Of a stretch of DNA of 64,000 nt, positions 1 through 64,000 are shown in pieces; positions within the stretch are counted from its first letter, which is position 1; each line of letters begins with the position of its first letter. A program made the position numbers and the translations under genes. The notes under the pieces were generated by a model that did not search any database, was not told the origin of the DNA, and saw only the letters and a list, made by a program, of their open reading frames with translations. The stretch is from Cantharellus purpuraceus (Eukaryota; Basidiomycota; Agaricomycetes; Cantharellales; Hydnaceae): the NCBI GenBank assembly GCA_025174535.1, contig JALBUN010000003.1:558001-622000 (forward strand). The letters are read 5' to 3'.

Positions 1-645
1 TTGCAATCCCATGTCAAGCATGGGATCAACCTTGTGCAGATTGTACAAGGTGCATATAGAAAGGATACTGTCCTTTCTAAGGTGCTGGAAGCACCTAAAG
101 AGCATACACAATTTGGTGTGCGTGATGGTCTAATAAATATATACAGACACAATGTCATCTGTATACCCCATTCAGCGTTTCTGAAGGGGAGGAGGCTGGT
201 TGAGATAATAATCAACCATGTGCACCAAGTAGTTGGCCATTTTGTCAACTAAAGACCACAAATTACATTTGACAGTCATTCTGGTGGCCAGGCATGACCA
301 CCAATGTCAAATCATTCTGCACTTCATGTGCAAAGTGCCAAATGAATAAAGACAGTACAAAGAAACCCATAGGGCTTCTTCATAGCTTGCCAGTACCAGA
401 ATGGCCCTGGCAATCAATAGGTATGGGCTTTATGGGTCCATTACCAAAATCGAATGACTATGACTACCTACTGGTAGTCATAGATCACTTCACATTGCAG
501 GTACATATAATACCTACAGATACGCATGTAACAGCAAAAGGAGTAGCATGGCTATTCCTTAAAGAAGTTGTACACCTTCATGGTGTACCAGATTCAATCA
601 TGTCTGATCAAGATTCAAAATTCATGTCTATCTTTTGGCATGAAC
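1..645 (+). pseudogene. HP1 integrase, zinc-binding and core domain part
   Basis: Two reading-frame pieces, 1-252 and 294-653, match a Ty3/gypsy integrase. The second contains the CTSCAKC part of the HHCC zinc-binding domain, the WPWQSIG motif at the start of the catalytic core and the SDQDSKF motif around the second catalytic Asp. The first catalytic Asp of the usual (M)DF motif reads Gly here (GMGF, about 424-435), so the protein would be inactive even if the frame were intact. The two pieces are separated by a frame break near 252-293. The better preserved minus-strand relative at 43110-43613 reads through this point. Coding is cut by a solo LTR at 646. Confidence 0.8.
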
Positions 646-1286
646 CGTTATAAATATATTCCGTATATGCCGCCTTGCTAAGTCTAAAGTCGAATAGAGG
701 TCGGTCAGGTTGGAAGCAGAGGAAATGATAGGAGCTGGAAATGCTGGCGCTTATGACAGGGGCAAATATATGCGTGCTTGTAACGTCGTACAGGCATCGT
801 ATGGCCTTGCGGATGTGATTGAGTTTAGAAGAATTGATAAAGTATTTGAATAGTTATAAGGAGAACAGTGAAGTCGCTTCTGGAAATGACAAGTTATCAA
901 GACAAACTTGGAGATAAAAGATCTGGTCCATTGTGTAGCTAGCTAGTCTCATTTTATACACTATAAGCATGTTAGGAGTCCGTAGTAAAAGGTTCTGGGT
1001 TGTGGGGGTGGAGGGAGAATAGATGACAGAATTTTTGAGACTGGGGTGGTTCTAGCTGTAGTGTCCATGGGAGGGTGAGTAGAAAAATGAAATAAAAATA
1101 AAAAAATGTCCACAATCTTGCCCTCAACTCCTATACCCTCTCCCCTATCTCCTCCCCTCCTTATCCAATTGCTCACCTCACCCCTCACTCCTCTGGACCT
1201 CCTGTATGCCCCTTTCCCCTTGATCCTTCTCCTTTCTCCTCTCAGCCCTCTGAAACGCGCCCATTCATCTAACCGGGATCACAACA
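646..1286 (-). mobile_element. Solo LTR, family J (J2)
   Basis: Inserted in the HP1 integrase. TGAAC flanks it on both sides (641-645 and 1287-1291). On the minus strand it begins TGTTGTGATCCC, then has a long purine-rich stretch and a T-rich stretch, the same layout as J1 at 14956-15709. The far end reads ...AACG where CA is expected, presumably a mutation. No coding capacity. Confidence 0.65.
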
Positions 1287-1365
1287 TGAACTACAGTGGA
1301 TAATGGGAGTGAAATTCCTCATGTCCACAGTGTTCCATCCACAAATGGATGGAGCGATGGAACAA
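1287..1365 (+). pseudogene. HP1 integrase, middle segment
   Basis: Continues the catalytic core between two LTR insertions. In frame it reads a GVKF...STVFHPQMDG block, the region before the catalytic Glu in Ty3/gypsy integrases (usual form FHPQTDGQTE). Too short to have been called as a gene alone. Confidence 0.7.
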
Positions 1366-2818
1366 TGTTGGTTTGCTTATGGAATAGATCCTATAAGCCT
1401 GTGCACAATGGTCCTAGCAAACAGACAGTGTGTAATGCAGTTGTTCAGCACACCAAAGAACAGTCAGGCTGAGGGGTAGTACTGAGTATTCAGTAAGTGT
1501 AATAGTACACTGTGTCTGGTGAGGGTGATAAAAAGGGCACTGTCGAGATGAGTTATAGTGCTCTTTGGTTGGAAGATGAGAGGGATGGTCAAGATGGTAG
1601 ATCATGCTCTGGGACTTTCTGGCAAGATGGTTGATTGTGCTCTGTGACTGGAGGACAATGGGGAGCCTGGTTGGGAGGTATGCGAAGGCTGGTTTCAGGA
1701 GATGCAACCTCTCGGTGGCGGAGGGAAATCTGATCATTGAACCAAGGTGCTTTACCTCAGTGTAGAGCTGATGGATTGGGATGTAGAGCATAGAGTGTAG
1801 ACTTAGAGCGTGGACTTTGACTTTAGTGCATTGGCTGAAAACTTGTTGATTGATCCAAAAGGTGAAAACTAGCACCCTTTTATATACAAATCCCCAGGGC
1901 ACAACAACACAATATGAGGAGCAAATGATGTGATATGATAAGAAATGCTGATCAAGCTAGCTGACAAAGCGTGTGAAGTTAAACTACTAATGGGGAAATC
2001 ATGGAGAAATGAAGCAACAGATAGGGGTAATCTTTGTAAGAATAGGAGGTGATGAGTAATAAAAGAACCAAAAATAGAAAAAGGATGAGTAAGTCATGTA
2101 TGAATGAATTAAAAAGATGAAACAGGGGTGAGTCATATAAAAGAACAATAGAAACATCCACCAATACCATCTTCCCTACAGCTCCAAAGGTAAGTCAACC
2201 CTGAGTCACATGAGGACTTCAGTCAGCATCCACAACAAATACTCCTTATTGTCTTAGTGATCCGTATCCCGTTCCAAGGGTATTTGGTCCCTTTGCCTGA
2301 CATGATGTAACCTGAGTCGGATTGAAGTGGGAGGATAGGTCAGCAATGGCGACTGAAACTCTACCTCACATTTGGCTCTTCTATCCATGTTACAATATAG
2401 AGGCGAAATGCCGAGGAATGTATATGGTTCAACAGAATTGTGAAAGAATATGGGATCACCAATGGCATAAGAGAGACAAGGTGGGGATCTTGGATGTTGA
2501 AAGAGTTTTGGAAGTATTTTGACACGTGGAGGTGGCCTAACATGCCCATGGAGCTCAGTGTGAGGTATTATTAGAAGAGATATTGGAGAGAGGAATAGAA
2601 TTGGAAGCCATGTGAATGATGATGAAAGGATCGGTGTGAATAGAAGGCTGATAATGATCGATGGCGATGAAACATGAGTGATGATCGATGGCTAGAAATA
2701 GAGACTGAGGTGGAGAGGGAGTTGCAGCACTATTTAAAAGCTTGATACGAAAAGATGCTGATGGAGTTGGACTGTCAAAGTGGTTTGATATACATCCTTG
2801 ATGCGTCCTGGCTTGTCA
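1366..2818 (-). mobile_element. Solo LTR, family B (B1), 1453 bp
   Basis: On the minus strand it starts TGACAAGCCAGGACGC and ends ACCAACA, matching B2 (4949-6377), B3 and B4. It splits the integrase: the FHPQMDG block is on the left and NHSIGQI on the right. A TATA-like tatataaaagg lies near the start of the presumed transcribed part (about 1876-1886, minus). CAATG occurs at 1363-1367 and 2817-2821 but overlaps the TG/CA ends, so a target duplication is not certain. Confidence 0.8.
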
Positions 2819-3018
2819 ATGAGTGAATCATTCCATTGGCCAAATACTTTGTACAGTTGTACAAAGTGATCAGAAAGATTGGGCACATAAGTGTCCAATG
2901 GTGGAGTTCACGCTGGACTCCAACATAAGCTCAATAACGGGGTTTACTCCATTTGAGCTTAACTATGGGTATATGCCTAGAATAGCCATGCCCATGAATA
3001 ATGACACCAAGTTCAAGG
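2819..3018 (+). pseudogene. HP1 integrase, C-terminal part
   Basis: Reads NHSIGQI, QKDWAHKCPMVEF and TGFTPFELNYGYMPR, the typical alpha-helical segment and FELxYG motif downstream of the catalytic Glu in Ty3/gypsy integrases. Interrupted at 3019 by solo LTR O and resumes at 3336. One codon near 2820 is a stop. Confidence 0.75.
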
Positions 3019-3335
3019 TATTGGAATGTGGAATGTATACACATACCACAATGCGTCAACATGATTGTGGTTAAGCATGCCGTGTTCCACTTGTCTCATC
3101 ACTACTATTCCGCTGTTCCACACTCCACACTGGTGACCATATATATAGTGGCCACCAGTCATTCCTTCCCCTCAGTCGTATTCTCTACATACTGACTGAG
3201 GTAAGGAATTAAGTCTTATTTATTTACTGTTGGTCCACTCATGTACTATGTCGTACAGATCTGTCTGTACAGGTACTTGGAATACAGTCGTATTCTCTAC
3301 ATACTGACTGAGATCTGTCTGTACAGATTCTAACA
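3019..3335 (-). mobile_element. Solo LTR, family O, 317 bp
   Basis: Flanked by CAAGG on both sides (3014-3018 and 3336-3340). Removing it restores an uninterrupted integrase reading (KFKG followed by VK). Minus strand starts TGTTAGAATC. Inside, a block of about 28 bp (cagtcgtattctctacatac and on) occurs twice, near 3175 and 3286, so part of this LTR is duplicated about 112 bp apart. Confidence 0.65.
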
Positions 3336-3926
3336 CAAGGGTGTCAAATGATCCACACAGTAGGCTCAAACAAACCTTGCAGTGCATGACACAATTATAG
3401 AAAGTTGTGTCATTCAGATGTTTCATGCCAATAAGAAATGTTGGGAAGGTTCAACCTTCCAGGGAGGTGACAAAGTCTACCTCTCAATGAAAAACTTGAC
3501 TCTACCTAAGGGGAGAACCAGCAAACTAGTGCCTAAGTATATCAGGCCCTATAAAGTAATCGAAGCCCATAGTAAGCTTTGACGGTGACACTAGAACTGC
3601 CACCAGAACTGACTAGTAGGCACATTATGCCTACATTCCATGTCAGTCTCATTCAACTGTATGTGCTGAATGATGAGATGAGATTCCTGAAACAGGAAGC
3701 AAAGTCATTTTACAACTTTGGGAACGATGATGAGCAAGAGTGGCTCATCAATGAAATCATCGCTCATCGATGGATAAGTGATAAAGAACTTGAATTTCAA
3801 GTTCTATGGACGTTGGGAGACATCACCTGGGAACCTTACACATCATGTAAGGACCTAGAAGCTCTAGATGATTATTTAGAGCTTCAAGGGGTGACTCGAG
3901 TGCAAGAACTACCTCATAGACAGTAG
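3336..3926 (+). pseudogene. HP1 integrase tail and chromodomain
   Basis: 3382-3582 reads the GDKVYLS...TLPKGR...LVPKYIRPYKV block, the GPF/Y module found at the end of Ty3/gypsy integrases; after a one-base frame break 3579-3926 gives PTFHVSLI followed by a chromodomain-like segment (EWLINEIIAHRW, LEFQVLW, ITWEPYTSCKDL). Chromodomains in chromoviruses bind chromatin marks and bias integration. The reading ends in TAG at 3924-3926. Perfect inverted repeats are embedded in the coding sequence, for example 3785-3794 with 3796-3805 and 3858-3866 with 3877-3885. Confidence 0.8.
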
Positions 3927-4322
3927 TTCTCAGAGAGACGGAGCCCCAAAGGTCTAATGGGACTCAAGGGGGAGAAGTGGAGCTACCAAGAATAAAGGTA
4001 GCTCCTAGTGGGACACAACAAAGAGCTACCATCAATGATGGTAGCTCAATGAGAGGAGGAGGAACTACCCCAATTAATGGTAGTTCCTAGATGAGGATAG
4101 AGCTGCCATAACAATAGGCAGCTCGATGGCAGTAAAAACTGCTCCTATAGGGAGCAGTTCACCGTTGTGCTACTCATAGTAGCACAAAAAGGGTAAGCGA
4201 TAATTAATTGCATTACACTATGTGACATAGTCACTGGAAAAATTCTCAATAAAGAATTTTCAAGCTCAGCTGTAAAATGCTAGCGGTGTTTCTTCTAACC
4301 ACCACAACCCCCCTCCATCAAA
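3927..4322 (+). repeat. Spacer with eight consecutive short hairpins
   Basis: No coding potential. Perfect stems occur back to back: 3979-3987/3997-4005, 4023-4034/4036-4047, 4060-4069/4079-4088, 4100-4107/4117-4124, 4137-4145/4151-4159, 4165-4174/4178-4187, 4217-4223/4225-4231 and 4239-4246/4253-4260. Several arms are variants of GAGCTACC. The loops of the first and last contain AATAAA. Lies between the pol stop and the ATG of the second HP1 ORF. A purine-rich CAAGGGGGAGAAG precedes the first hairpin, so an alternative reading is that a short LTR begins at 3978. Confidence 0.85.
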
Positions 4323-4471
4323 ATGTCATCTCCCAGAAGGGAGATGATGGATGCTCAAGACAAGCATCCAATGGAAGTTGAACAAACTTCCACAGTGGCA
4401 GCACCTGCAATGAGTGCTGCAGATATAATCAGAGGTCATCAAGATGAGATGACCTGGAAAATAGGTGGATG
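4323..4471 (+). pseudogene. HP1 second ORF (ORF-X), N-terminal part
   Basis: Opens with ATG at 4323 (MSSPRREMMDAQ) about 400 bases after the pol stop and reads 49 codons before LTR C1 cuts it. The reading resumes at 7885. Five perfect inverted repeats fall within these 149 bases (arms such as CATCTCCC/GGGAGATG). Product unknown; see the 7885-9693 entry. Confidence 0.6.
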
Positions 4472-4948
4472 TGTTATGACTATATTCATTAACGCCCAGA
4501 TCCCCATCCAATCCACTCAGATCCCCACACATATGAAATCTATACTCCATTTGGGAACCAACACGTCTCCATTTATCTGTCTGATTGTCACTGCCAAATC
4601 TTGCCCATCTGTCTCCGGCTCCGATTGATGCATCAGCATCACCATAGGAACCCGGACATCCATCCCCGTTGGACATACTCATGTAAGGCCATCAGCCTCG
4701 GAGACCCATCACCGGAGAATTATTAATAGATTTCAAATATGTATTTAAGTTGTCTGACTGGGGATCTCATTCCCCAGTTCAAATATCAAATCACACCTAG
4801 TTCCTAAGTCTGATCCTAACCCTCTAAGTCATACTCCGTCTCTGAAATCTTGGACGCCAGTATTAGTGAGGGCGCAGCACATAAGCTGAAGCCAAGTCCG
4901 TTCCGACCCCCATGACGTACCCCAACTCCCTCTCCAACTCCGACCCGA

Positions 4949-6377
4949 TGACGAGCCAGGATGCATCGAGGACATATATCGAACCACTCTGACAGTCCAA
5001 ATCCGCCAGCACCTTTTCATATCAAACTTTTAAATAGCGCCGCAACTCCCTCTCTACCTCAGTCTCTAATTCTAGCCATCAATCATCACTTGTGTTTCAT
5101 CGCCATCGATCATTATCAGCCTTTGATTCACACCAATCCTTTCATCATCATTCACATGGCTTCCAATTCTATTCTTCTCTCCAACATCTCTTCTAATAAT
5201 ACGTCACACTGGTCTCTTGACACAGAGGACTATCAAAAATACGCTGAGCTCCACAGGCATGTTAAGCCACCACCACGTGTCAAAATACTTCCAAAACTCT
5301 TTCAATGTCCAAGATCCCCACCATGTCTCTCTTATGCCATTGGTGATCCCATATTCTTTCACAATTATGTTGAACCATATACATTCCTTGGCATTTCACC
5401 TCTATATCGTAACACGGATAGACGAGTCAAACGTGAGGTAGAATTTCAGTTGCCATCACCAACCTATCCTCCCACTTCAATCTGACTCAGGTTACATCAT
5501 GTCAGGCAAAGGGACCAAATACCCTTGGAATGGGATATCATATGGAGACGTATCACTAAGACAATAAGGAGCATTTGTTGTGGATGCTGACTGAAGTCCT
5601 CATGTGACTCAGGGTCAATTTACCTTCGGAGCCGTAGGGAAGATGGTATTGGTGGATATTTCTATTGTTCTTTTATATGACTCACCCCTGTTTCATCTTT
5701 TAATTCATTCATACACGACTTACTCATCCTTGTTCTAATTTTGGTTCTTTTATTACTCATCACCCCCTATTCTTACAAAGATTACCCCTATCTGTCGCTT
5801 CATTTCTCCATGATTTCCCCATTAGTAGTTCAACTTCACATGCTTTGTCAGCTGGCTTGATCAGCATTTCTTGCATCATATTGCATCATTTGCTCCTCAT
5901 ATTGTGTCGTTGTGCCCTGGGGACTTGTATATAAAAGGGCACTAGTTTTTGCCTTTGGGATCAATCAACAAGTTTTCAGTTAACACTCTAAAGTCAAAGT
6001 CCACGCTCTAAGTCTATGCTCTATGCTCTACATCACAATCCATCAGCTCTACACTAAGGTAAAGCACCTTGGTTCAACAATCAGATTTCCCTCCGCCACC
6101 AAGAGGTTGCTTCTCCTGAAACCAGCTTTCACATACCTCCCAACCAGGCTCCCCATTGTCATCCAGTCACAGAGCACAATCAGCCATCTGGACCATCCTT
6201 TTTGCTCCCATCCTCATCCAACCACAGAGCACTATTTCACTTTCCTGTTACTCAGTGCTACCTCTACCCCTCGACCTGATTGATCTTTGGAGTGCTGAAC
6301 AACTGCATTGAACACTGTCTGTTTGCTAGGACTGTTGCACGCAGGCTTATAGGATCTATTCCATAAGCGAACCAACA
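4949..6377 (+). mobile_element. Solo LTR, family B (B2), 1429 bp
   Basis: Runs from TGACGAGCCAGG to GCGAACCAACA, inside the C1 LTR. Contains a TATA-like tgtatataaaaggg at about 5927-5940. Open frames inside it (for example 4961-5485) recur with different breaks in B3 and B4 and are not convincing genes. No clean target duplication seen. Confidence 0.8.
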
Positions 6378-6402
6378 CCAACCTCCGACCCAATCTCCAA
6401 CC

Positions 6403-7855
6403 TGTATGGGAACTGGTTTTCCCTTAAAAAGATCTTGTTTAAAGTCCCGAAACTGTACAATTTCGCTTGATGGCCTTAAAATATCAGCATATATCTGCTG
6501 CTTTCTCTTGATTCAGGGCCATTCAAATATTCTCTATTTTTTCATATTTTTTTTGGGAATTTTCCATGCAGAAATGAGTCTACAAACTTATTGTTCTGCT
6601 GGGCGAAGTTTTGGGACCCACATGGACCCACAAACCTTCGCAGATGTCAGCAGCCTCAAAGTCAGCCGGAGTCACCCGGACAACTGACTCATTGTCGATC
6701 ACATGACTCATTTCAATCTCCGACTCAATCTGGTCACCACTGCCAGTAAATGCTCAATATCTTCGCAACCACTGCACCTCCTGACTCCATTTTCAGTGGA
6801 GAGTTCAATAGAAGCCATGCCTACCCATAGCTGTGCTAATCAGCCTGGGAAACGAAGTATTGACCGAGTTATTTGAGTAATGGTGACTCATGCAATGACT
6901 CCTGCCATGACTCATGCTATGACTCCTTCCATGACTCATACCATGACTCCTGTGATTACTCATACTATGACTCCTGCTCTGAGTCACACTATGACTCCAT
7001 CCATGACTCATGCCATGAGTCAGAGCAAATCCAAGCAGCTCATTGGCTAGGAAACTTCCACCCCTTCTCACATATTCCACTAGCTTCCAGTAGTTTCCAT
7101 CTATTAATAGGTAGAAGTTTCCAGTAGTATTAGTCAGCTCCTGTAAATACAATATAAAAGGAGCCCATTCTGCCTCTGAATAAACAACCATTTCTACCCC
7201 ATCATTTGCACATCAGTGTGACTAGAGTGACATACAGTGTCATCCTCTATATCTCAGTAACTGTTGATTGTCCAGTTCAAGGGTCGCTTACAGTTGTGTA
7301 ACTGTATTCGATTGCACTCGAAGTAGTGATTGTCCTGCTTTGGGCGTGAGTGTAGTATCTACCTCGCGTGACTACGAATCTACAGGGTGAGATTGTCTGT
7401 CGATAGTCCTGCCATTAGTGCTCTTGTTTAAGTTACTAGTGTGTACTGCCTTTGCAGAGCATTAGAATCTTGAACTCGTGTGAAGCAGTTGCTAGACTAC
7501 TTCACACATTGCTGTTACCCGCTTCAGAGTGTCACTGGTTGGACGGTCGGATTCATCCACCTACTTCCTCTAGCCTCTAAGTGCATTCCCCTCTTTTTGG
7601 AATATCTGGACCCCTAAGCGTCCGTGAACTCTAGACTCTGGAAGTCTTATTCATTCCCTACTGCTAAGAAACGTATTACCTTCCTGCGTATCGTCTGCAT
7701 TGACCATTACAACGGATTGTAACCAAAGTACAAACATTAAATCGTTTCTGGAGTTGTGCTGCAGTAGGATTTGATATTCTTCTCAGCTGTTCATTCACGG
7801 AATTGTGGTGATTTAGAGTTTGCCCTAACACCATAATTTTGCGGGTTCCAAAACA
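6403..7855 (+). mobile_element. Solo LTR, family E (E1), 1453 bp
   Basis: Runs from TGTATGGGAA to GGTTCCAAAACA with a perfect CAACC duplication (6398-6402 and 7856-7860), inside the C1 LTR. A TATA-like element (atataaaagg) lies near 7152. A second copy, E2, is at 39404-40835. E1 differs from E2 by a TGACTC-rich array (6884-7022). Confidence 0.9.
6884..7022. repeat. Degenerate minisatellite of TGACTC cores in LTR E1
   Basis: About 140 bases built from variants of (c/t)catgactc(a/c)t spaced about 10-11 bases. I count nine TGACTC and two GAGTCA, including several full TGACTCA sites. The block is absent from E2. TGACTCA is the core bound by Gcn4/AP-1-type bZIP regulators; a role in LTR expression is inference. 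The Ser/His-rich frame read from it on the minus strand is a by-product of the repeat. Confidence 0.8.
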
Positions 7856-7884
7856 CAACCCCCAATTGGACCTAGTGCATAACA

Positions 7885-9693
7885 GAATGGCATGGTGGCA
7901 TTGCCATCCATCACCCTCATGGGTGTAACAAGTGCAACGCATATGTATCACACTTAATTGAGGCCCAAAATGGGGGCCAACTATATCTTTCCACCACTTT
8001 GGTGGAAAGAGCATTAAGAGTCGCACGGCTGCAACTTATATGCAACATCAAAGATGATGTTGTGACACCTTATCATGAAGACTACAATAAGATGTACAAA
8101 GATAACTTGGACCTGTTTGCACAGGTCCAAGAACTCAAAGGACTTCTTGACAATGAGAAGTCCAAAGTAACTCATCTCAGAGACAAGTTAAAAACACTGA
8201 AGGAGGCTGCAGGTAGAGCACCTCCTACATTCAAAACCAAGCTCATGACGGTGCACTTGGCCCCAGTAGCATCACTATTGCATGCTATGACAGGCAAATC
8301 ATTGCCTGCCATTATGCCATCACAACCCATGGCTTCATCGTCATGGGAAACAATCAACCTCACCAAAGAGGATGATCTCCCAAGCAAACTGCCTCAGGTC
8401 AACCCTTGAGGGTTTGAGGGTTAAGATTGGGATGACACCAACCCAATCTGAGAGGGATACGACCATGATTGTGGTCTCCTCCTGGCTAGCATTCCCAAGG
8501 GTGCTAAGCAACTGGGCAAACTCGAAGAGTTTTCCCTATCTAAAATCAAAGCTGAGATTGATCAGCTTTGAAAGGAATACATGACTGGTGACACCAGCCG
8601 TACCTTAAAAGACCCAGTGTTGAAGATGCTGGAAGAAGCCCAGTGTGTGAATTATTGCAAATGCTGGGATGATTTCGGACATGCTCTCAAGCATGCCAAT
8701 GTGGGAAAATCATTCCCCAAATGGGCACCATGGTTCATGACTGCGGCTGACCCCCCCAGAGCAGTCACTGGCCACCTGCCATGACCTCTGGGCAAGTCTG
8801 CCCCTATCAGGGCAGACTGGTTCAACATCTGTGATACAGACACTCCAGAGTTTGTATTGCTCCATAAAAAGGCATTGGCCATGCCATTCACAGAATGGAC
8901 TATACCAATGCACAGAGTAATCAAGAGAATGACTCTGCTGGCTTGTGCTGATAACACGAGTCTTATCATCACTCTACCAACCACACCGGTAGACACGATC
9001 ACCCTCATACAGGGGTGGCAAGTAAACCCTAATGGGGTCCCCCCAGCCATCCAACAGGAGTCAGGTGGCACCATGAACTTGTCCGATGTGGACATATGGA
9101 TGTGGCTGCAAAAGGCCACTCCCAAGAAGGGTTCTTCTGCATTCAAGAAGAACCTCTGGACTATGTTCCAGAATCCTGGCCACTGGGAATCATTGACCAG
9201 TGGCCAAAAGTTCTCACCAACTCTTGGTGACACCTTTCACGCTTCAGTCACTGGAGCGTATGATTGGGGGAATCACTCCTCCAAAGAACATACTGAACTA
9301 GAGCTTGTGCTCTGGTTTGGGCAATCAGGAGGCATCACCCCTGATCGTGCTGCTTCTTTAGAGGAGTTTGCTAAACGCATCACCTCTGGTGCAGCTTTTA
9401 ACCAGCCTGCCAGGGTTGGTAAGCAAAAGCAGAAGACTCAGGGAGTCTCCCAAGCAGCTCATAAAGCTGCTAAACACTCTCTTGCTGAGTGTTTAGGTCA
9501 TGATCAAGTTAATTGTGAACTTGATAGGGATGCTGCAGTAGCAATTGCATCCTCTTCATCCATTCAAGTAGATGAGGATACTGCAACAATGTTGGGGACA
9601 ACTGAGAGCCATCCCCCTCTGGAGCCATATGATCAAGATAATCATATGGACACTGACTCATCGGAGCAGCTTCATAAGGAGCTGTATGATTAA
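7885..9693 (+). pseudogene. HP1 second ORF (ORF-X), main part; product unknown
   Basis: Stays in one frame to a TAA at about 9691-9693, but contains in-frame stops (8407-8409, and others to about 8784), most of them TGA. Joined to 4323-4471 it would be roughly 650 residues. Visible parts: an HHPHGCNKCNAY segment with a CX2C pair near its start; a heptad-like helix (about 8083-8205) suggesting a coiled coil; a Trp-rich block (WMWLQK, LWTMFQNPGHW, about 9100-9190); and a basic stretch (KQKQK, about 9424-9438). It precedes a polypurine tract and an LTR, so it sits where an extra 3' gene would be. It could instead be an unusual gag. I do not recognise the family. The DNA is saturated with perfect short inverted repeats. 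Confidence 0.6.
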
Positions 9694-9722
9694 AAAGTAC
9701 TGAATGAGATTGTGTCTCATTC

Positions 9723-9734
9723 AAAAGGGGAGGA
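9723..9734 (+). other. Polypurine tract of HP1
   Basis: AAAAGGGGAGGA immediately before the TGTAAG start of LTR D. This is the expected plus-strand primer position and marks the 3' end of the element's internal region. Confidence 0.75.
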
Positions 9735-9833
9735 TGTAAGTACCCAAGGCACTTACTTACTATAGTATATAAGTATAATTGATATACGCAGCATTCCCTT
9801 AAGGAATGTTGTCCTCTTGGTAGATATATGCAC
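9735..9833 (+). mobile_element. LTR D, first 99 bp (3' LTR of HP1, truncated)
   Basis: Matches the start of the complete 258-bp LTR D at 58022-58279 (minus strand), from TGTAAGTACC to the tagatatatgcac block. The remaining part is lost at the junction with LTR B3. Contains an inverted repeat around gcattccc/ggaatg. Confidence 0.8.
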
Positions 9834-23350: not shown

Positions 23351-25033
23351 CTTACTATATAATGAAACGGCCTAGGTGGGTTGTGGGCGTTTTTAGGCGC
23401 CATGCTGACCAATAACTTATCTAACGCTTAGCTAAGCTTACTTAATATTGCATAAGCCAGTCAGGTGACAAGTCGCGCCACGCTGTTCAGTGCGCGCTTG
23501 CGAATCGAAAATTTTCATTCGCTTTCTACCCCCGACCTCCACAAGCTCGCTCGCCGTCCACAATCTCTTGCTGATAGCTGTCGCTCTTCTGGCTCTCGCT
23601 GTCTGTAGCTCTTGCTGTCTGTTGCTGCCTACTAGCTCTTGCTGTTGGCCGCTGTCTACTTGCTCTTGCTGTCTGTTGCTGTCTACTAGCTCTTGCTCTC
23701 TGCTGCTGTCTACTAGCTCTTGCTGTTGGTCGCTGTCTACAATCTGACGCTGCCCGGTATAGTTTAACTTGATGATACTAGCTTCTGCTGTCTACCCGCA
23801 CTCGCGCCCCCCCTAGCCTGTACTCGCGCCCCCTCTAGCTTGCACTCGCGCTCCCTCCAGCCTACACTCGCGCCCGCACCCGCACTGACGCCTCCTCCAG
23901 CCCACACTCGCGTTCACGCCGCACCCGCACTGACGCCCCCTCCAGCCCGCACTCGCGTCCGCACCCGCACTCGCGCCCCCTCCAGCCTGCACTCGCACCC
24001 GCACCCTTCCAGCGCGCACTCGCGTCCGCATCCGCACTCGCGCCCCTCCAGCCCGCACCCACACCCACACCCTTCCAGCGCGCACTCGCGTTCGCATCCG
24101 CACTCGCGCCCGCACACACTCGCGCCGCCTCCAGCCCACACTCGCGTCCGCACCCGCACTGACGCCCCCTCCAGCCCCCACCCGCGTTTGCGCTGCACCT
24201 GCACTCACGCTCCTCCAGCCCCTCCAGCCCACACTCGCGCCTCCCCCGCACTCGCACTCGCGTCCGCACCCACACTGACGTCTCCTCCAGCCCTCACTCG
24301 CGTTCGCGCTGCACCCACACTCGCGTTTGCGTCGCACCCGCACTCGCGCCCCCTCCAGGCCTCACTCGCGACCCCTCCAGCCCACAGTCGCGTCCGCACC
24401 CGCACTCGCGCCTCCCCTCCAGCCCACACTCACGTCCACACCCGCACTGACGCCACCTCCAGCCCGCACTCGCGTCCGACCCACACTCGCACCCCCTCCA
24501 GCCCACACTCGCGTCTGCACTCGCGCCCGCATCCCCTCCAGCCCGCATGGGTGCCCGCTGACATGCACCGTGTTGTCCCCGCCACCCAGTCCGTCCCCCA
24601 CGCCCCGCCAGCATCCACCCCGGCGCAGGTGGCGACGACGCATACGGTGTACCCCCCGACGACAGAGACGACGACGGCCCGGAGGAGGGCGGCACCACTC
24701 TCGCCTGCGCACTCGCACCTGCCGTACTTGTCCCTGCCAACATGTATTTAGTGAAAAAATAGTTTAATTCTTTGTTATCACTTTACTTTTTTGAGCAAAG
24801 AGTTATTCAGAGATTAATGGTATTTAAGTTGACAAACGCTAAGGACAAATGGAAAATAAAAATGACATGAGAGAGATTTGTACCTCCAACCAAACAAAAA
24901 GTACATGCAGCTGACCACTGATCCAAGACACTCAATACAGCTGCCCTGCATCATGCTATATATTATAGTACTGCCAAAGGAATATGTATGGACAGATCAG
25001 AGGAGGGTTTGATGTGGTGTATCTGAGTGCATC
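23351..25033. repeat. GC-rich composite repeat unit K1
   Basis: Direct copy of K2 (25301-27555). Shared left end: ggcctaggNgggttgtgggcg, then the gcgcgcttgc...ttttcattcgctttctaccc block. Next is a 25-30 bp minisatellite of tagctcttgctgtctgttgc type (about 23575-23745), then about 0.8 kb of degenerate cactcgcg(t/c)ccgcacc...ccctccagcc tandem repeats (about 23800-24560), then a SINE-like segment. Shared right end: gtatctgagtgcatc. The long Pro/Arg/His- or Gly-rich frames read here are low-complexity by-products, not genes. Confidence 0.75.
24765..24945 (-). mobile_element. tRNA-derived SINE-like segment in K1
   Basis: Same segment as 27278-27440. On the minus strand it has an A-box-like and a B-box-like (GGTACAAATCTC) element followed by an AT-rich body and an A-run. 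More decayed than the K2 copy. Confidence 0.4.
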
Positions 25034-25110
25034 ACACGTACACATCCAAAATCACACGTACACATCCAAAATCACACGTACATATCCAAAATCACACGTA
25101 CACATCCATG
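25031..25110. repeat. Four exact-length 20-bp tandem repeats
   Basis: Unit ATCACACGTACACATCCAAA at 25031, 25051, 25071 (one change) and 25091 (last bases changed). Lies between K1 and K2. The rest of the interval to 25300 shows nothing recognisable. Confidence 0.9.
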
Positions 25111-26369
25111 GTGACCTCCTGAACCCAATATATGATGTGTGCATATATGCATTTCTAATCCACATGTAAAAGCACTATCTATCCTGTGCGTAAAATTCTA
25201 ATCCATGCATAAAAGCATTTTTTAATGCACTAAAACCATTTCTAATGCATGCCTATAAGATCTACTTGGGTCCTTCCGAAGGAAGGGGTACTCTGCTAGT
25301 CTATAATACAAAAGGCCTAGGAGGGTTGTGGGCGCACGCTTATGTCAGCTTATCTAATCTGCGCCAGCCTCCCGTTCACCTGCTGTCCGGTCATGTGACA
25401 AGTCGCGTGAGGTTGCTGAGTGCGCGCTTGCAAAAATGAAAATTTTCATTCGCTTTCTACCCCCGACCTCCACCAGCTCGCTGTCCACAATCTGTTCTCT
25501 ACTAGCTCTTGCTGTCTTTTGCTGTCTGCTAGCTCTTGCTCCCTGTTGCTGTCTACTAGCTCTTGCTGTCTGTCACTGTCTACTAGCTTCTTGCTCCCTG
25601 TTGGTATACTCTTGCTCTCTGTTGCTGTCTACAATCTGACGCTGCCCGGTATATTTTAACTTGATACTAGCTTTTGTTGTCTGTCGCTGTCTGCAATCTG
25701 ACGCTGTCCAGTTTATTTGACTGCTATAACTAGCTAGCCATCACCCAGCACTCGCGTCCGCGCGCGCACTCGGGCCCCCTCCAGCCCACAGTCGCGTCCG
25801 CACTCGCACTCAGGCCCCCTCTAGCTCGCACTCGCGTCCGCACCCGCACTGACGCCCCCTCCAGCCCTCACTCGCGTTCGCGCTGCACCCGCACTTGCGC
25901 CCCCTCCAGCCTACACTCGCACTCGCGCCCATCCAGCCCACAGTCGCATCCGAACTTGCACTCACGCCCCCTCTAGCTCGCACTCGCGCCCGCACCCGCA
26001 CTCGCGCCCCCTCTAGCCCGTACTCGCGCCCCCTCCAGCCCAAACTTGCGTCCGCACCCGCACTGACGTCCCCTCCAGCCCCCACTCGCGTCCGCACCCG
26101 CACTGACGCCTCCTACAGCCCTCACTCGCATTCGCACTCGCGTCCGCACCCGCACTCGCGCTGCCTCCAGCCCACACTCGCATTCGACTCGCATCCGCAC
26201 CCCCCGCGCCGCCTCCAGCCCGCATTCGCACTGACGCCCCCTCCAGCCCACACTCACGTTCACGCCGCACCCGCACTCGCGCCCCCTCCAGCCCTCACTC
26301 GCGTCCGCACTCGCACCCCACACTCGCGCCCCCTGGCCGTAGGTACTCTATATATCTCCGGCGATTCAG

Positions 26370-26740
26370 AGATCGCGAGTGACGTGCACCGCACGCCGTC
26401 CTTTTTCAACGCCCCTCGCGCCGCACATCAACCTCACCATCGAGTTCGCGCCCACCAAGCGCGGCGGAGGTCCCACCTGCTGGGTGCGCGAGTTCAGCGT
26501 CTGGCGCATCCCCCTGAGAAAGGTACCTGCACCCGCCCCCTTGCACTCGCCGCACTCGCACCCGCCTCCTCCAGCCCATCTGCCACCCAGGGCAGGCCAG
26601 AATCCCACACCACCCATCGCGTCTCTGCATCTCTGACCTCAACATTTGCCGCCCCAACCTGCTCTACGGCACCATCGTAGATGTGGACGAACGTGTCACA
26701 CTTGCCGGATATACCTCCGACTTCACATTCTCCAATTCCC
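26370..26740 (+). pseudogene. Exon-like fragments embedded in K2
   Basis: Two blocks read as ordinary protein, unlike the surrounding array: HINLTIEFAPTKRGGG, CWVREFSVWRIPLRK (about 26421-26521, followed by a GTACCT donor-like site), and CRPNLLYGTIVDVDERVTL, AGYTSDFTFSNS (about 26650-26740). They are absent from K1. I do not recognise the parent gene. They may be exons captured by the repeat, or remains of a gene invaded by the minisatellite. Confidence 0.4.
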
Positions 26741-27277
26741 GCACCCGCCGCACTCGCTCCTGCACAACTCCCGCATCCGCCGCACTTGCCGCCGCACCCA
26801 CCGCACCCAACGCACTTGCCCCCACCGCACCCAACGCACTTGCCCCCTCCGCACCCGCACTGACGCCCCCTCCAGTCCGTACCCGCACGTGCTCCCTCCA
26901 GCCCACACTCGCATCCGACTCGCATCCGCACCCGCCGCGCCGCCTCCAGCCCCACTCGCGTTCACACCCACACTCGCGCCTCTTCCAGCCCACACTCGCA
27001 GACTCGCATCCGCATCCGTCGCGCCCCCTCCAGCTCACACTCGCGTCCTCGCGTCTGACTCGCACTTGCGCCCTCTCCAGCCCTCACTCGCGCCTCCTGC
27101 AGCCCACACTCGCGTCCGCACCCGCACTGTTGTCCGACTCGCGCTCGCACCCCCTCCAGCCCGCATGCGTGCCCGCTGGCGACCGCTCGCGCCTGCGCAT
27201 TAGCGCCCGCATTCGCACTGCTGCACTTGCCCCTGCCCCCGCACGCGCAACACGTATTTGGTAAAATAATTCTTTAG

Positions 27278-42943: not shown

Positions 42944-43106
42944 ATGTCTTAGTTCAGACTATTACACAGAACTCAACCAAGTATATTAGTATGTACTTAG
43001 GTCCACATATAGTAGACAGAAAACTTAGTAACCACCACACTGTACAGCACATCACCCAACCAATACACTTGGTTGAGTTCTGTGCAATGATGTGAACTAA
43101 GACACC
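42944..43106. mobile_element. LTR D fragments in inverted arrangement
   Basis: 42944-43000 is the reverse complement of the LTR D end (tgtcttagttca...). 43003-43106 is the same end in direct orientation, finishing gaactaagaca followed by cccaattaac, which resembles the sequence after LTR D at 58021 downwards. Confidence 0.65.
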
Positions 43107-44845
43107 CAATTAACATCCTGTGGGTTTCTTCATACTGTCTTTATTCATTTGGCACTTTGCGCATGAAGTGCAGAATGATTCAACATCAGTGGCCATGCCT
43201 GGCCACCAGTACAACCATTGAATGTAATTCGTGGTCTTTAGTTGACCAAAATGGCCAACTACTTGGTGTGCATGGTCGCATATTATCTCAACCAGCCTCC
43301 TCCTCTTCAGGAATGCTGAGCGGGGTATACAGATGACATCATGTTTGTATATATTTTTGGTCCATATTAGACCATCATGCACACCAAATCGTGCATGCTC
43401 TTTAGGTGCTTCCAGCACCTTAGAAAGGACAGTATCCTTTCTATATGTGCCTCGTACAATCTGCATGAGGTTGATCCCATGCTCGACATGGGATCGCAAT
43501 GGTGTTCCATCATCATCTGATGACATCACTCCAATGTCCTCTATTTCTTTAGAGGAATTAGAATCATTGTTCAATGATTCTGTTTGAACATTGAGTGCTT
43601 CAGCTTCTAGCACTCTGTTTTCTTTTTTCTTGAGCAGAGTTGCCCTCAGGTGACTGCTGCCGTCCTGATCTCAACAAACTGTTCTGTGAGGAGCAGTTCT
43701 CCTTCAGGGTTAAGATGTACATCTGCGCTCATGTAGATGTAGTTGGGATGGCTCTCTGTTGGGGAATCATCAGTATGGTAGCATGACAGACAATCCACTA
43801 CTTTGTTCTCTACCCCATCTATATGCAGGGTAGTAAAGTTGAAATGGGGTAAGAACTCCCACCACCTAATCTGGGAGACAGGTTCTTTTGGGTCTCAAAG
43901 TATTTGAGACCCTTGTGGTTGGTTACTAGGACAAACTTTTGTCCTAGTAGCTTATCTTCCCATCTCATCAGGGCTTCAAGCATGGCTATAGTCTTGTGCT
44001 CATGAGTCTTATAGTGCTGTTGTGCAGCACTAAATTTCTTGGATAGGAATCTGGCAGGCCAACAGGTCTGCCAATCTTTTCCTTGTACATAGACAGCTCC
44101 AACTCCAGTCTTGGAGCCATCAGTAATAACCCAAATAGTGTTGGGGTTATTGACATCAATGGCTACATGCTAGGAGCTTAATGCTTTCAAAGCATTTCTC
44201 CAGCAGCGGTGTCCATAAGAATGGACAATTATTATGAGCACAACCCAATAAAGGGGTTGTGTATGTGGTTATATCTGGCATATAGTGTGCCAGATACTGC
44301 ACTAGTCCAAGAAAATGTTGGACTTTATGGTGCGACCTAGGTCATCTCCACTCTCATATTTGCTGCATTTTGTCTGCATGCACACCTTGGTCATCTATTA
44401 GGTGACCAAGGCAATCCATACTTGTTGAGTATAGATCAATCTTATCCTTGCTCAGGAACATATGTGCTTTCCTGAGTTTGGTGAACACCATCCCTAGGTG
44501 GTGTTCGTGCTCTCGTATAGTACAAGAGTACACAAATATGTTGTCCAGATATACATGGATGAATCTTCTGATATATTCTTGGAAGATGGTGGTCATGAGC
44601 TGCTGAAATGTTGAGGGGGCATTACAGTCCCCTTGCTGCATGACTTGACTGACGAATGTCCCCAAGACGGTCACACGTGCCATCTTGGGTATATCTGTTG
44701 GCCTGACATGTATCTGTTCGTATGCCTCAGACATATTGAGTTTAGATCAATATGTACAGTGGGCAACATCATGTCCTGATCAGGGAAGGGCATTACATCC
44801 TTCACTGTATTGTCATTCTGTTCATGCAAGTCAAACATGGTGCAG
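43107..44845 (-). pseudogene. HP2: hairpin-family reverse transcriptase, RNase H and integrase start
   Basis: Read on the minus strand from 44845: RT motifs GTFVSQVMQQGDCNAPSTFQ and HVYLDNIFVYS (about 44540), where the second catalytic Asp of YLDD is Asn; then RNase H with HYKTHEHKT, ALMRWEDKLLGQKFV and LKYFETQ (about 43880-44060); a linker; then integrase 43613-43110 with the zinc-binding VVGHFGQLKT...CTSCAKCQ. The integrase part is collinear with 1-350 of HP1. Perfect inverted repeats tile the DNA, for example 43560-43569/43572-43581, 43890-43899/43903-43912, 43925-43935/43938-43948, 44385-44393/44403-44411. Cut on the right by LTR B4 within the RT. Confidence 0.8.
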
Positions 44846-50309: not shown

Positions 50310-51842
50310 TCATATCATGACGCACTTGGTGGAGTGTGACTCAAGGTGACGCCTTTTAGATTTGGGGACATGGACAAATGCAGTGGAACCAAATACCCTG
50401 AAATGCACAACAGATGGCTTGTGGCCATGCCAGGCTTCATATGGAGTCCCTTGGGATAGCGCAGAGGTGGGAGAGCAGTTGTGGAGAAGAGTGAATGCCA
50501 TTGCTGCTTCTCCCCAGAGAGAAGGACCTAGTTGAGCATCATGTAACATGGAGATAATGCCTTCTTCCAGTGTCCTGTTGTAGCGCTCTGCAACTCCATT
50601 CTGCTGTGGTGTGCCCAGTGCGGTCTTTTGCCTGAAGATCCCAGAGGACATGGTCAGGAAGGAGAACTGGTGCGATGAGTACTCTCCTCCTTTATCATCC
50701 CTCAGGGTCTTGATCCATTTGCCAGTCTGGTTCTCCACCAGTGCTTTGAACTGCTTGAATGCATCCAATGCCTGGTCCTTGGTTTTGATCAAGTACAGGC
50801 TCACAAAACAAGATTGTTGTCAATGAATGTGATCCAGTACCTAAACCCTTGTCCAGTGGGCACCTTCAATGGGCCATGAACATCAGAATAAATGAGTTCC
50901 AGGATGTCAGTGGCCCTGAAGGAGGCTTTCTTGGGGAATGAATCACGGTGTTGTTTACCATGAATGCATGCTTCACAGATTTTGGGGAATGGATTGTCTG
51001 ATGTGATGTCCATCCCCTCCACCATGTTCTGCATGATCAGCTGTTTGACAGCATCAATCCCAAGGTGCCCAAAGCGATGGTCCAGTGACTTGGACGTAGC
51101 AATGTGTGCAGTGTGAGAAAGCATGTTGCCATCTAGGTATGCCAGTCTCCCCTTGACCGTTGCAGTACATAACAGTTTGCCCAACTTGTAGAATTTGACA
51201 ACCGCTCCTATGATTTCCACACGAATCTGACGGTGCATGGTCAAGAAGAGAGTGAGAGGAGGTTGTTTGCAAGTTTGGGAATGTATAGTACATTGCTGAA
51301 CAGTATAGGTTTCAAGTTTGGGTCATTTGGGCAAAACATCACTGTGCCAATCCCTTCAGAGTACACAATTCAATGGGAGCTCTATGAGGTTTGAGCTCCT
51401 TAAACCAATGGCGATGTGGAGTCATATGTAGTGAGGCTCCTGAATCAGTGCACCAAAGGGAACTGGTATCAGAGACAAGGTGTGCATGAGGAAGAGAGGG
51501 AATGCTTGCGGTGGTAAATGCCGATCCTGCAACTTCAACAACAGAGGAGGTAGATTCATCTGCCTGTTTAGCCTTGTGCCTCTGCTTCTTCTCCTGCTTA
51601 GCCGTCTGTCTGCACTCCAGATTAGCCTTCTTGGCATTGGCAAGAAAAGCAAACATTGGTGTTATGAGTAGATGATTTGCAGAAGTTACACCATTTAGAA
51701 GAGGGTGTTGAAGCAAGTGGTTTGGATAGCATGGCTGATTGAACAGAACGGTGCAGACGGTTGTTCTCTGTGATAAAGGCTTCAATAACTTTGGCCTTGT
51801 CAATGTCCTTTTGAAGCAGTAATGCAGACGTGAAGCTGTCAA
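50310..51842 (-). pseudogene. F1 protease and integrase
   Basis: Three overlapping frames. 51842-51339: a basic linker, then protease LWCTDSGASLHMTPHRHWF (active-site DSGA). 51244-50801: GAG-pre-integrase domain (LDHRFGHLGIDAVKQL, CEACIHGKQHRDSFP, the HHCC zinc-binding His and Cys) and the first core Asp in LIYSDVHGPL. 50804-50310: core continues with TLRDDKGGEYSSHQF (second Asp) and TPQQNGVAERYNRTLEE (catalytic Glu). At least two fr shifts separate these pieces, so this copy is not fully functional, although all catalytic residues remain. Confidence 0.85.
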
Positions 51843-52356
51843 ACTCCTCAGGAGGGGCTCTAATGAGTGTCATGATCACCAGTTCCTTGTCCTGTCTGGC
51901 TAGTGTATAGGAGCCATCAGATGGACAAAGGTTCTGGCAGAGTTGCATGGCAGAGCTGACATGACCAACCAGAGACTGGAGTGTCTCATCTGGAGCCTTC
52001 CGTATATTGAAGAGTGTATCATAGGCATTGAAACAAGTGCCTGCCTGCTTCTGAACATGTACTCTGTGCAGAGCTTCCCACATTTTCACCGGATTGTCCT
52101 CTAATCCCTGAACATGAACTCGCTGCCCTTGTTCCAAGGTTGATGCAATGAGTCCAGCTGCTACCTCCTGATCCAATTCCCATTTCTCCATGTCTGCAGG
52201 TTCAGTGGGGCGCCTTTTTCTGCCATTGACAAGCATCCATAAGCCCTTTGAATATAAGCTAGCAGTCATGTTGAATGCCCAGTCATGATAATTTGAGTCT
52301 GAGAGGATGGGGAAGTTAGGAGAGGGAGTGTGATTGTTGGAGGTGGTTGTAGACAT
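51622..52356 (-). CDS. F1 gag
   Basis: 244 codons from MSTTTSNNHTPSPNFPILSD. Contains the copia-type Gag start (LSDSNYHDWAFNMTASLYSKGLW), the UBN2-like core (AYDTLFNIRKAPDETLQSL, DKELVIMTLIRAPPEEFDSF) and a truncated zinc knuckle CNFCKSSTHNTNVC (CX2CX4HX4C). The frame ends just after the knuckle; the continuing protease is in a different frame. The same start occurs in F3 (about 62989). Confidence 0.85.
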   Translation of the reverse strand: MSTTTSNNHTPSPNFPILSDSNYHDWAFNMTASLYSKGLWMLVNGRKRRPTEPADMEKWELDQEVAAGLIASTLEQGQRVHVQGLEDNPVKMWEALHRVHVQKQAGTCFNAYDTLFNIRKAPDETLQSLVGHVSSAMQLCQNLCPSDGSYTLARQDKELVIMTLIRAPPEEFDSFTSALLLQKDIDKAKVIEAFITENNRLHRSVQSAMLSKPLASTPSSKWCNFCKSSTHNTNVCFSCQCQEG

Positions 52357-57944: not shown

Positions 57945-58021
57945 CTCTCTCACTCCAGGGGGATCTATCTAGACTCTCCAGATTCAGATTCTCTTTGAGG
58001 ATCTGGTCTTTTGTTAATGGG

Positions 58022-58279
58022 TGTCTTAGTTCACACCATTGCACAGAACTCAACCAAGTGTATTAGTTGGGTGATGTGTTGTACAGTGTGGTAGTTACTA
58101 AGTTCTATCTACTATAAGTGGACCCACACATGTACTGGGTCCACTGGCTTACATAATAACTATACATGTGCACCCATAGGGTGCATATATCTATCAAGAG
58201 GACAGCATTCCTTAAGGGAATGCTGCATATATTAATTATACTTATATGTTATAGTAAGTAAGTACCTTGGGTACTTACA
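58022..58279 (-). mobile_element. LTR D, complete, 258 bp (hairpin family)
   Basis: Minus strand TGTAAGTACC to GAACTAAGACA. Contains perfect stems 58117-58126/58136-58145, 58203-58211/58217-58225 and 58258-58266/58270-58278, plus tgcaccc/gggtgca at 58169-58185. The first and last 80 bases recur at 9735-9833 and 42944-43106. 57945-58021 on its left is unassigned. Confidence 0.8.
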
Positions 58280-58948
58280 TCTTTGGTGACACAACTTGCA
58301 TTGCTCAGAGCATTCTTGGAGTGATTTTCACATTGTTCCCAGCTCTGTAATTTGCTGCCTCATAGTGGTGGCAGCATGTTCTGCCATCTTGGCTGCCTGA
58401 GCACTAGCTTCACTAGTGCTCTTCATCTCATGCTGATTGCACATGATTTGCTCAGTCAATCTTGCAATTGACCAGTGAGTTTCACACTGCTCCATGCTGC
58501 ATGATACCCTGGTAGAAGTATTGCTACTTCTACTTGTGCTTGTCTCTCAAGCACATTCCTTCCCTTTAGAAATGTTGGAGGCAGTTCCCGGCTGTCTCCT
58601 TCTTTCTTTTCTTATTAAAGAACCACTCAACGAGGGGTTCTTGTTTGAAAGACAATCTATTGTATGATTGTCTGTGCAGTCTTGCAACCATGATGACTCT
58701 CTCCTAGAGTCTTCCTTACAAGAAGTCCCTACAACTTCTCTAGGATCTAGCTCCCCTTCATGGGAGCTTCTACTGCTGGCTATGCACTGTTCATCATTTA
58801 TGATGTCCTTGGTGCTGCCAGCACAACTCGCTCTGCTTCAAGTCATCATTATGATGACTCCTTCCCTTCTGCTTCTGTAGACTGTCAGGGTTCATATGAC
58901 TCAGTTTCTATTTTTAGTACCTTTCTTATCACCCCTATCAGCACAGCC
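58280..58948 (-). pseudogene. HP3: hairpin-family internal fragment
   Basis: Minus-strand reading gives a helical segment (CETHWSIARLTEQIMCNQHE, EASAQAAKMAEHAATTMRQQ, about 58340-58480) ended by TGA. No recognised domain; it may be part of gag or ORF-X. Tiled with perfect inverted repeats: 58399-58407/58413-58421, 58512-58520/58525-58533 and others near 58620-58670 and 58840-58855. Confidence 0.5.
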
Positions 58949-60633: not shown

Positions 60634-61268
60634 TGTTAAGGGCTGGAAAACTCGGGGGGTCAAAGGGAAATGGCTGGAGTTTGGCTGCTAGTACAGAGGG
60701 AGATGGGACTTTACTGTTCCAGTTCAACTGGAGACAGAGTGGGAGCAATACTATTGAGTCGGATCGAGTGGACTTGGCTTCAACTTGTGTGTTGCGCTCC
60801 CTCAGATCGTTGGTCCAATATTTTGGACTTCAGAGTATGGAGTTGGATCAGGGATCAGAGTTCAACTTGTCAAGAAGGTACTTGTCAAGAAGCTAGCAAC
60901 CAAGAAGTTGATGGGGCAAATCTTAGTCAATATACAAACTACTGTAATAGACAGAGAGTAGCCCATATAACTATGTGGAGAATTGAATGCTGAAACTAAA
61001 ACGATAAGACAATAAGATGGATATGGAGTACAACATGGAAAGGAGTTTGAAGTTTGGACCCAAGTCCAAACTGAAACTAAACAATATGAAAGAAGGAGGT
61101 TTGTTGTAACCCATAAGAAGAAACTACTTATAAAGAGAATAATAATGGAGTTCAGGGTTGACAGAGGTGGAGTTGACAGAGGTGGAGTTGACAGAGGTGG
61201 AGTTGATGGGGATGGAGATGAAGGAGATGGAGGTCCAGAGTTTGGACTTGGTGTTACAGGATGTAACA
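60634..61268 (+). mobile_element. Solo LTR, family N, 635 bp
   Basis: Starts TGTTAAGGGC, ends GGATGTAACA, perfect CTTCT duplication (60629-60633, 61269-61273), within the protease coding sequence. Carries a 15-bp repeat (ggagttgacagaggt type) three times plus two variants at about 61148-61225. Part resembles LTR C (cttggcttcaacttgtgtg). Confidence 0.9.
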
Positions 61269-63691: not shown

Positions 63692-64000
63692 TGAAAACCT
63701 TCATGCTAGAGCAATCCATCACACTGCAATTAGCGTGCATTGGGAGCAGGAGTACCATAAATTATGGTGCTCACACTGTCATAAAGTTTGGTAGTCAGGA
63801 CATTGAAGAATACTTTGATGTCACCAACTTCAAGTATTACAATGTAATACTCAGTACCCCATTCCTATGAAAGCTAGGAATATGCCTGGACTTCAATGGC
63901 CATGGCCAAATCATGATGGAAACTAAAGAAGTCCCCACCAATGAAGAGCATAATACCAATGCTCTTTGTACCCTGTCACAGGGTACAAACTCAATATGAA
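63692..64000 (+). pseudogene. HP4: hairpin-family protease-like region
   Basis: Reads LACIGSRSTINYGAHTVIKFG and YFDVTNFKYYNVILSTPFL, then LGICLDFNGHGQI, the retropepsin-like domain that precedes RT in many Agaricomycete Ty3/gypsy elements; one TGA (about 63868). Perfect inverted repeats include agtattaca/tgtaatact (about 63834-63853) and tttgtaccctg/cagggtacaaa (about 63964-63990). Runs off the window. Confidence 0.65.

Follow-up and report, generated by a model that had tools for sequence, protein, structure and literature searches.

A Ty3/gypsy retrotransposon family of Cantharellus purpuraceus filled with short perfect hairpins, a possible trace of fold-back template switching

How could a protein-coding mobile element come to be filled with short perfect hairpins? 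This question was raised by a window of 64,000 nucleotides (the whole stretch of DNA analysed here: Cantharellus purpuraceus assembly GCA_025174535.1, contig JALBUN010000003.1, positions 558,001 to 622,000, forward strand), which contains several pieces of a repeat family designated HP. Judged from its domain order and terminal sequences, HP is a Ty3/gypsy long terminal repeat (LTR) retrotransposon. The hairpins were confirmed as real, and they resemble the footprint of an enzyme that folds back on the strand it is copying more than they resemble a selected RNA structure. We give roughly even odds to the reading that the HP copies in the window are decayed Ty3/gypsy elements whose source lineage was filled with hairpins by fold-back template switching during replication.

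A sequence-only reading of the window had listed 18 pairs of hairpin arms, all 18 of which proved to be exact reverse complements. The 7,409 bases labelled as HP by BLAST held 94 stems with arms of at least 7 bp (12.7 per kb) and 60 with arms of at least 8 bp; the remaining 56,591 bases of the window held 68 (1.2 per kb) and 22, respectively. The HP label takes in positions 60633-61268, probably an insert common to the copy L034, and without them the density was 13.4 per kb (90 stems in 6,712 bases). Stems with arms of at least 8 bp numbered 4-11 in the eight densest 1-kb bins (starting at 1, 3001, 4001, 8001, 9001, 43001, 44001, and 58001), for which five dinucleotide shuffles averaged 0-0.6, and 0-3 in each of the other 56 bins. 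Positions 1-9833 had been taken as one HP stretch, of which the HP family was found to occupy only 3,984 bases, the other 5,849 being mostly inserts; the HP bases carried 12.8 stems per kb (arms of at least 7 bp) and the others 1.0 per kb. The description of a hairpin in almost every 20-30 bases was likewise too strong for single copies, in which arms of at least 6 bp occurred about once per 48 bases. As had been claimed, hairpins were present in coding and non-coding parts alike: in the parts of the element read, among which the gag end was hardly sampled, arms of at least 7 bp numbered 10.6-16 per kb in the internal parts and 18 per kb in the HP LTR. The inserted LTRs of other families, by contrast, were not rich in hairpins, as had been noted.

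Codon-preserving shuffles (100 each) were compared with 12 HP open reading frame (ORF) fragments, several of which represent one region in different copies. With arms of at least 7 bp, all 12 fragments lay above the shuffle mean and 10 lay above every shuffle; with arms of at least 8 bp, 11 of the 12 exceeded the mean, the segment L023:2671-3183 having zero stems. Four of four control ORFs (a host gene, copia, gypsy, and one other) fell under their shuffle means. Densities equal to codon-preserving shuffles, or equal densities in other elements, had been named as results that would overturn the hairpin claim; the opposite was obtained in both comparisons. Chance and base composition were ruled out as the cause by dinucleotide, mononucleotide, codon, and column shuffles. 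Tandem repeats were rejected as the hairpin source, since the sole arrays listed in positions 1-9833 (6884-7022) lie within an insert, and a host-wide effect was rejected on the basis that hairpins were lacking in other elements, the host gene, and the inserts. With these shuffle controls, and with hairpins in every one of the 20 copies read, which lie on many contigs, an origin in chance, base composition, tandem repeats, or an assembly artefact is given next to no weight.

RNA folding, proposed earlier as a check, agreed with the stem counts: the z-score was -3.2 to -7.0 in six of six HP pieces (40 shuffles each), and +1.8, -0.5, and -1.4 in three non-HP pieces. That all six HP pieces fold more stably than their shuffles favours the main rival to switching, namely selection for local structure, in which genomic RNA or single-stranded cDNA would be kept as a stable string of hairpins for packaging, protection, or silencing escape, and stems would be held under about 12 bp to avoid double-stranded RNA sensing or polymerase blocks. 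We consider this explanation possible, although rather unlikely.

The geometry of the hairpins bears on both explanations. Inverted 7-mers were enriched 6-fold at gaps of 0-3, 30.6-fold at 4-7, 29.3-fold at 8-11, 9.9-fold at 12-15, and 2.3-fold at 16-20, and from 21 upward the ratio was 0.75-1.2; direct repeats were enriched 3-fold at most. Stems predating decay were defined as pairs of alignment columns with Watson-Crick complementarity in 15% or more of the copies and a loop of at most 15, a rule satisfied by a single copy where few copies overlap, as is equally the case in the shuffled-column controls. Such stems with arms of 8, 9, 10, 11, 12, and 13 bp numbered 40, 23, 23, 18, 2, and 1, and the corresponding control means were 7.5, 1.9, 0.5, 0.4, 0, and 0. 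Hairpins with arms of at least 8 bp spanned 16-34 bases, most commonly 23-26, and the arms reached a ceiling near 11 bp, that is, one helical turn (longest 10 bp in the LTR, one arm of 13 bp in the 3' ORF, and one of 12 bp in pol). Before decay, hairpins with arms of at least 8 bp covered 26-70% of every 250-base block of L023 from 251 to 6000; such arms numbered 22 per kb in the LTR and 3' untranslated region, 18 in the 3' ORF, and 17 in pol. Sharp ceilings of arm and loop are easily pictured as selected; the missing enrichment of longer-range pairing and an LTR density equal to that of coding parts speak against selection. HP was also considered as a foldback element or one of the miniature inverted-repeat transposable element type, and this was rejected on the basis of its direct LTRs and an excess consisting of short local hairpins only.

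The distribution of stems among copies indicates when they arose. A DNA search of the 40.15-Mb genome with window positions 8101-9700 gave at least 45 matches, with 40 of 258 candidates scored, and most matches were 86-90% identical. All 20 copies read, including that of the window, contained hairpins: arms of at least 7 bp numbered 13-27 per 1.5-1.6 kb, where mononucleotide shuffles gave 0.6-2.6. The pairwise identity of the copies was 87-95%. Of the 44 stem positions of one segment, 34 recurred in 4 or more of the 20 copies, and 21 in 10 or more. Because stem positions are common to many copies, most stems would predate insertion. The copies, all of them close, decayed relatives from one genome, differed chiefly by transitions, on either arm; variants common to at least three copies comprised 718 transitions and 52 transversions, counted over all matrix columns with a depth of at least 10, a few hundred of which lie outside the HP family. 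Neighbouring pairs alternating between GC/AT/GT/AC and CG/TA/CA/TG states look like CpG decay. No compensatory change was found at paired sites across copies (109 pairs, z -0.19; slid controls -2.1 to +2.7), which again disfavours selection, though dead copies cannot test selection in the source. Judged from these comparisons, the source lineage already carried most of the hairpins, and the main trend in its genomic copies is loss. The copy L042, chosen to represent a diverged subfamily, turned out to belong to HP itself (86.7%). Two HP copies that face opposite ways on one contig, at G000:C37:39635-41200 and 50733-52298, agreed in score, length, and query range, which suggests an inverted duplication.

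The DISCRIMINATING tests concerned loop inversion, G-U pairing, and protein. Exact inversion of the loop, including a transversion, was observed in 5 of 131 stems (15 of 2,072 cells) and in 2 of 2,419 control placements (Fisher p 6e-6). The transversion condition was a later addition; without it, 5 of 132 stems and 4 of 872 controls passed, the latter being mostly CpG-like transition pairs. The inverted loops were ATA/TAT (2 cells), CTT/AAG (1), GGGT/ACCC (1), AAA/TTT (5), and ATA/TAT (6), and they sit in stems of 9-11 bp. The first LTR hairpin had a TTG instead of a CAA loop in 1 of 23 copies. The AAA and TTT loop forms were each present on two flanking haplotypes, so that the flip recurred or was recombined.

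Variation of the loop inversions among genomic copies and different haplotypes is in line with a process in host DNA, in which replication or repair would correct quasi-palindromes in inserted copies, as described for chromosomal genes in a yeast study (PMC8604942). As the source of the stems, this is disfavoured and very improbable: the stem positions common to many of the 20 copies place most stems before insertion, decayed arms were not re-matched, and the other elements and genes of the window are without hairpins. Host processes may nevertheless explain the loop flips.

If the stems had been selected as RNA, G-U pairs should be favoured. At the outer stem edges, G-U accounted for 14 and A-C for 28 of 161 pairs, and at the inner edges for 17 and 24 of 104, with background fractions over all pairs of 0.108 and 0.143, respectively; stems were lengthened about equally when G-U or A-C was allowed. 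The lack of preference for G-U over A-C at stem edges therefore weighs against a selected RNA fold. The protein test covered 391 codons with enough homologues. The residue of the homologue majority occurred in some copy at 80.7% of the fully paired codons (88) and at 79.4% of the unpaired codons (247), and stem-codon positions were also less conserved among the homologues themselves (0.684 vs 0.731). These values agree with the proposal of a second constraint on the coding sequence, as stem codons retained homologue residues about as often as others. This use of synonymous freedom with the protein spared can also be counted in favour of selection. No clear bias was found in the codon register of the stems (28, 26, and 18). 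Of the two explanations offered by the sequence-only reading, selection for RNA folding is thus weakened by the stem edges, the strictly local pairing, and the absence of compensation, with the bridging mismatches described below leaning the other way; fold-back switching gains from the loop inversions, the strictly Watson-Crick stems, and the length ceiling, and is favoured with arm correction itself uncaught.

The proteins of HP are those of a Ty3/gypsy element with a Tf2-1-like integrase C-terminus, presumably of the type called Tf1/sushi. Open fragments of L023 matched on one strand, in order, RT_RNaseH_2 (2.8e-15), RT_RNaseH, Integrase_H2C2 (1.9e-7), rve, and SH3_Tf2-1 (4.8e-12), the rve match being weak (1.1e-3, under its curated cut-off). 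The coexistence of integrase and chromodomain motifs with the hairpins had been asserted earlier; the integrase domains were recovered, and a chromodomain gave no match in the eight fragments scanned, SH3_Tf2-1 being the sole match after the integrase core. Homologues of the piece spanning reverse transcriptase (RT) and RNase H bear PF00078 and PF17919. Identity to homologous proteins reached 75% across part of this piece, for which the named sources include Sparassis crispa and Rhizoctonia solani, and 72% across part of the integrase C-terminus. The RT has a YLDD motif, whose second aspartate was intact in four of seven copies, and the RNase H acidic residues were intact in 8 of 8, 6 of 9, and 6 of 9 copies read; losses of acidic residues in both enzymes fit G-to-A decay with one exception. 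The LTR is 269 bases long (TGTAAG...TTAACA), common to 3' and 5' or solo copies, and the polypurine tract AAAAGGGGAGGA precedes the 3' LTR at window positions 9723-9734. With its YLDD RT, RNase H, H2C2 and weak rve domains, SH3 domain, TG...CA LTR, and polypurine tract, HP resembles Ty3/gypsy elements; it differs from them in the perfect short hairpins throughout the parts read and in a 3' ORF of about 600 codons without a Pfam assignment. This ORF lies downstream of the integrase (7876-8409 and 8785-9693 in the window; L023:3935-5743); for the L023 pieces of this ORF no Pfam family exceeded its cut-off, and a protein search with a 300-residue piece found no homologue. HP may differ further in its primer site: judged by eye, no tRNA 3'-end complement was recognised just after the 5' LTR in two copies, L034 and L035. 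Priming of the element may be unusual. The leader after the 5' LTR in these two copies opens with an oligo-T run, and the matching window leader (58279-58882) is rich in hairpins.

Are the hairpins then a property of the whole clade? A sister copy, L041 (42% identity over 171 residues), had four arms of at least 7 bp and none of at least 8 bp in 1,014 homologous bases, for which the matching part of L023 had 10 and 4. Two of 100 shuffles of the L041 segment reached four arms, and there may be a weak excess of 7-bp arms in this copy. Its first 2,400 bases held five arms of at least 7 bp, and its positions 2404-3791 matched LTR-like repeats of other loci. L041 being far poorer in hairpins, a clade-wide property was rejected, on one sister copy. 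A near-restriction to one family would be natural under selection. A combined explanation, in which switching would supply perfect stems and flips while selection would retain the stems and cap their length, joins the loop inversions, the length ceiling, and the much lower sister density; its selective part is without independent evidence and it is less simple, and we regard it as improbable. In addition, open frames of more than 1,000 codons occur in many copies of a distant Ty3 family (28-30% identity in the integrase C-terminus), at loci including G000:C3:540402 and G000:C10:152537.

The favoured explanation, fold-back template switching in the source lineage, would operate as follows. A nascent cDNA strand would meet an inverted repeat whose arms, separated by a short spacer, match imperfectly, and the 3' end of the strand would fold back or jump to the complementary strand, so that the first arm would be copied instead of the second before return to the template. 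The product would be a perfect stem no longer than roughly one turn of the helix. Harmful conversions would be removed by protein selection, leaving survivors that are mostly synonymous, and the non-coding LTR would fill as well; after insertion, the copies would only decay, mainly by transitions. We favour such a ratchet in element replication because HP shows the known marks of template switching at high density, and we infer that switching built the stems and did not merely flip their loops. Its placement in reverse transcription rather than in host DNA stays conditional, because loops could flip in host DNA too, and the HP enzyme or particle would have to be unusually prone to switching. 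The broader proposition, that the replication enzyme or particle drives the element's whole genome to a tiling of perfect hairpins, an error process and not RNA-structure selection having rewritten much of the pairable synonymous and non-coding sequence, has in our estimate slightly less than an even chance.

Several observations weigh against fold-back switching as the origin of the stems. The five inversions stood beside 32 multi-base loop variants with a transversion that were not inversions (561 non-inversions in the controls). Any perfect hairpin can invert its spacer in host replication, so that the origin of the stems is not proven by the flips. An arm-correction event between copies was not caught, and paired sites vary independently. 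Among 61 transversion clusters (two or more transversions, some being alignment faults or outside the HP family), the stem was longer than in the majority state in 9, the same in 18, and shorter in 34; a few shared transversions lengthened stems, at sites chosen with bias, and outer-edge variants were dominated by decay. Single mismatches bridging two stem parts (24) comprised 6 G-U and 3 A-C, as selection would have it. The copy-averaged match to the homologue majority was lower in stem codons (0.652 vs 0.716). Overwriting of one (3') arm, which is expected from switching, was only a trend and not significant, the residue being retained in 37 of 42 left-arm and 33 of 45 right-arm codons (p 0.11; sister comparison p 0.44). 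Most copies read retain the acidic residues of RT and RNase H, so that no visible enzyme defect explains the hairpins. Finally, the sister family is likewise copied by reverse transcriptase, yet it has few hairpins.

Comparable events are known outside retrotransposons. In Saccharomyces cerevisiae, one report describes template switching between inverted-repeat arms that homogenises the arms and recurrently inverts spacers, the inversions occurring only with arms over 9 bp (PMC8604942). HP shares with that system the perfect inverted repeats, short spacers, and recurrent exact inversion in long arms (9-11 bp in HP); the yeast events, as given there, were found in 39 genes of 4,304 surveyed, whereas HP is a mobile element with roughly 13 stems in each kb. 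For ribosomal RNA and microRNA genes, a second report attributes both the making and the repair of perfect stems to switching and reads inversions as suggesting a switch from one strand to the other (PMC8794818). HP has perfect stems and loop inversions in common with those hairpins, which as described there belong to structured RNA genes, whereas those of HP lie in protein-coding and LTR sequence without an edge preference for G-U. Loss of RNase H2 in yeast raises quasi-palindrome mutations, according to a third report (PMC3820800); that system uses host reporter genes, and HP has its RNase H acidic residues in most copies read. No retrotransposon family described as hairpin-tiled was found among the literature matches listed (titles and abstract openings), which does not prove that none has been described. 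Template switching at quasi-palindromes is a known rare mutation, and here a whole mobile element looks to be filled with its product. If this is true, switching could be measured in bulk, including the limits of patch size and spacer and the tolerance of the protein; if selection is responsible instead, HP would carry an element-long hairpin code within protein-coding sequence.

The HP pieces of the window were delimited by BLAST and the stem list. HP1, on the plus strand, begins with a hairpin-rich integrase-region piece at 1-645 (hairpins at 6-26, 57-79, and 458-483; matching L023 1945-2596 at 90.8%), followed by a short piece between inserts at 1285-1362, a further integrase-region piece at 2818-3018 with a hairpin at 2846-2867, and a dense piece at 3336-4462 covering the integrase end and beyond (hairpins at 3785-3805, 3858-3885, 4023-4047, 4060-4088, and 4165-4187). 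The 3' ORF region, with its ORF broken into the two open parts given above, extends over 7883-9734 up to the polypurine tract, and the start of the 3' LTR (TGTAAG...) follows at 9735-9833, where the match stops as window-repeated sequence begins. HP2 comprises the end of an HP-family LTR on the plus strand (43000-43118) and an RNase H and integrase part on the minus strand (43117-44840), inverted relative to HP1, with 26 stems of at least 7 bp in 43000-44840. HP3, on the minus strand, consists of an LTR (58012-58279; five stems of at least 7 bp), with the minority TAT loop at the hairpin near 58169-58185 and the majority CAA loop at the first hairpin, and of the 5' leader and start of the internal region (58279-58882; eight such stems). 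HP4, on the plus strand at the window end (63691-64000), is a probable HP-family piece in which 63691-63767 match the upstream part of L021 and five stems of at least 7 bp occur up to 63989. Outside HP, positions 23583-27114 form a GC-rich tract of degenerate tandem repeats with short units (for example CACTCGCGCCCCCTCCAGCCC), and both strands of it contain long open frames.

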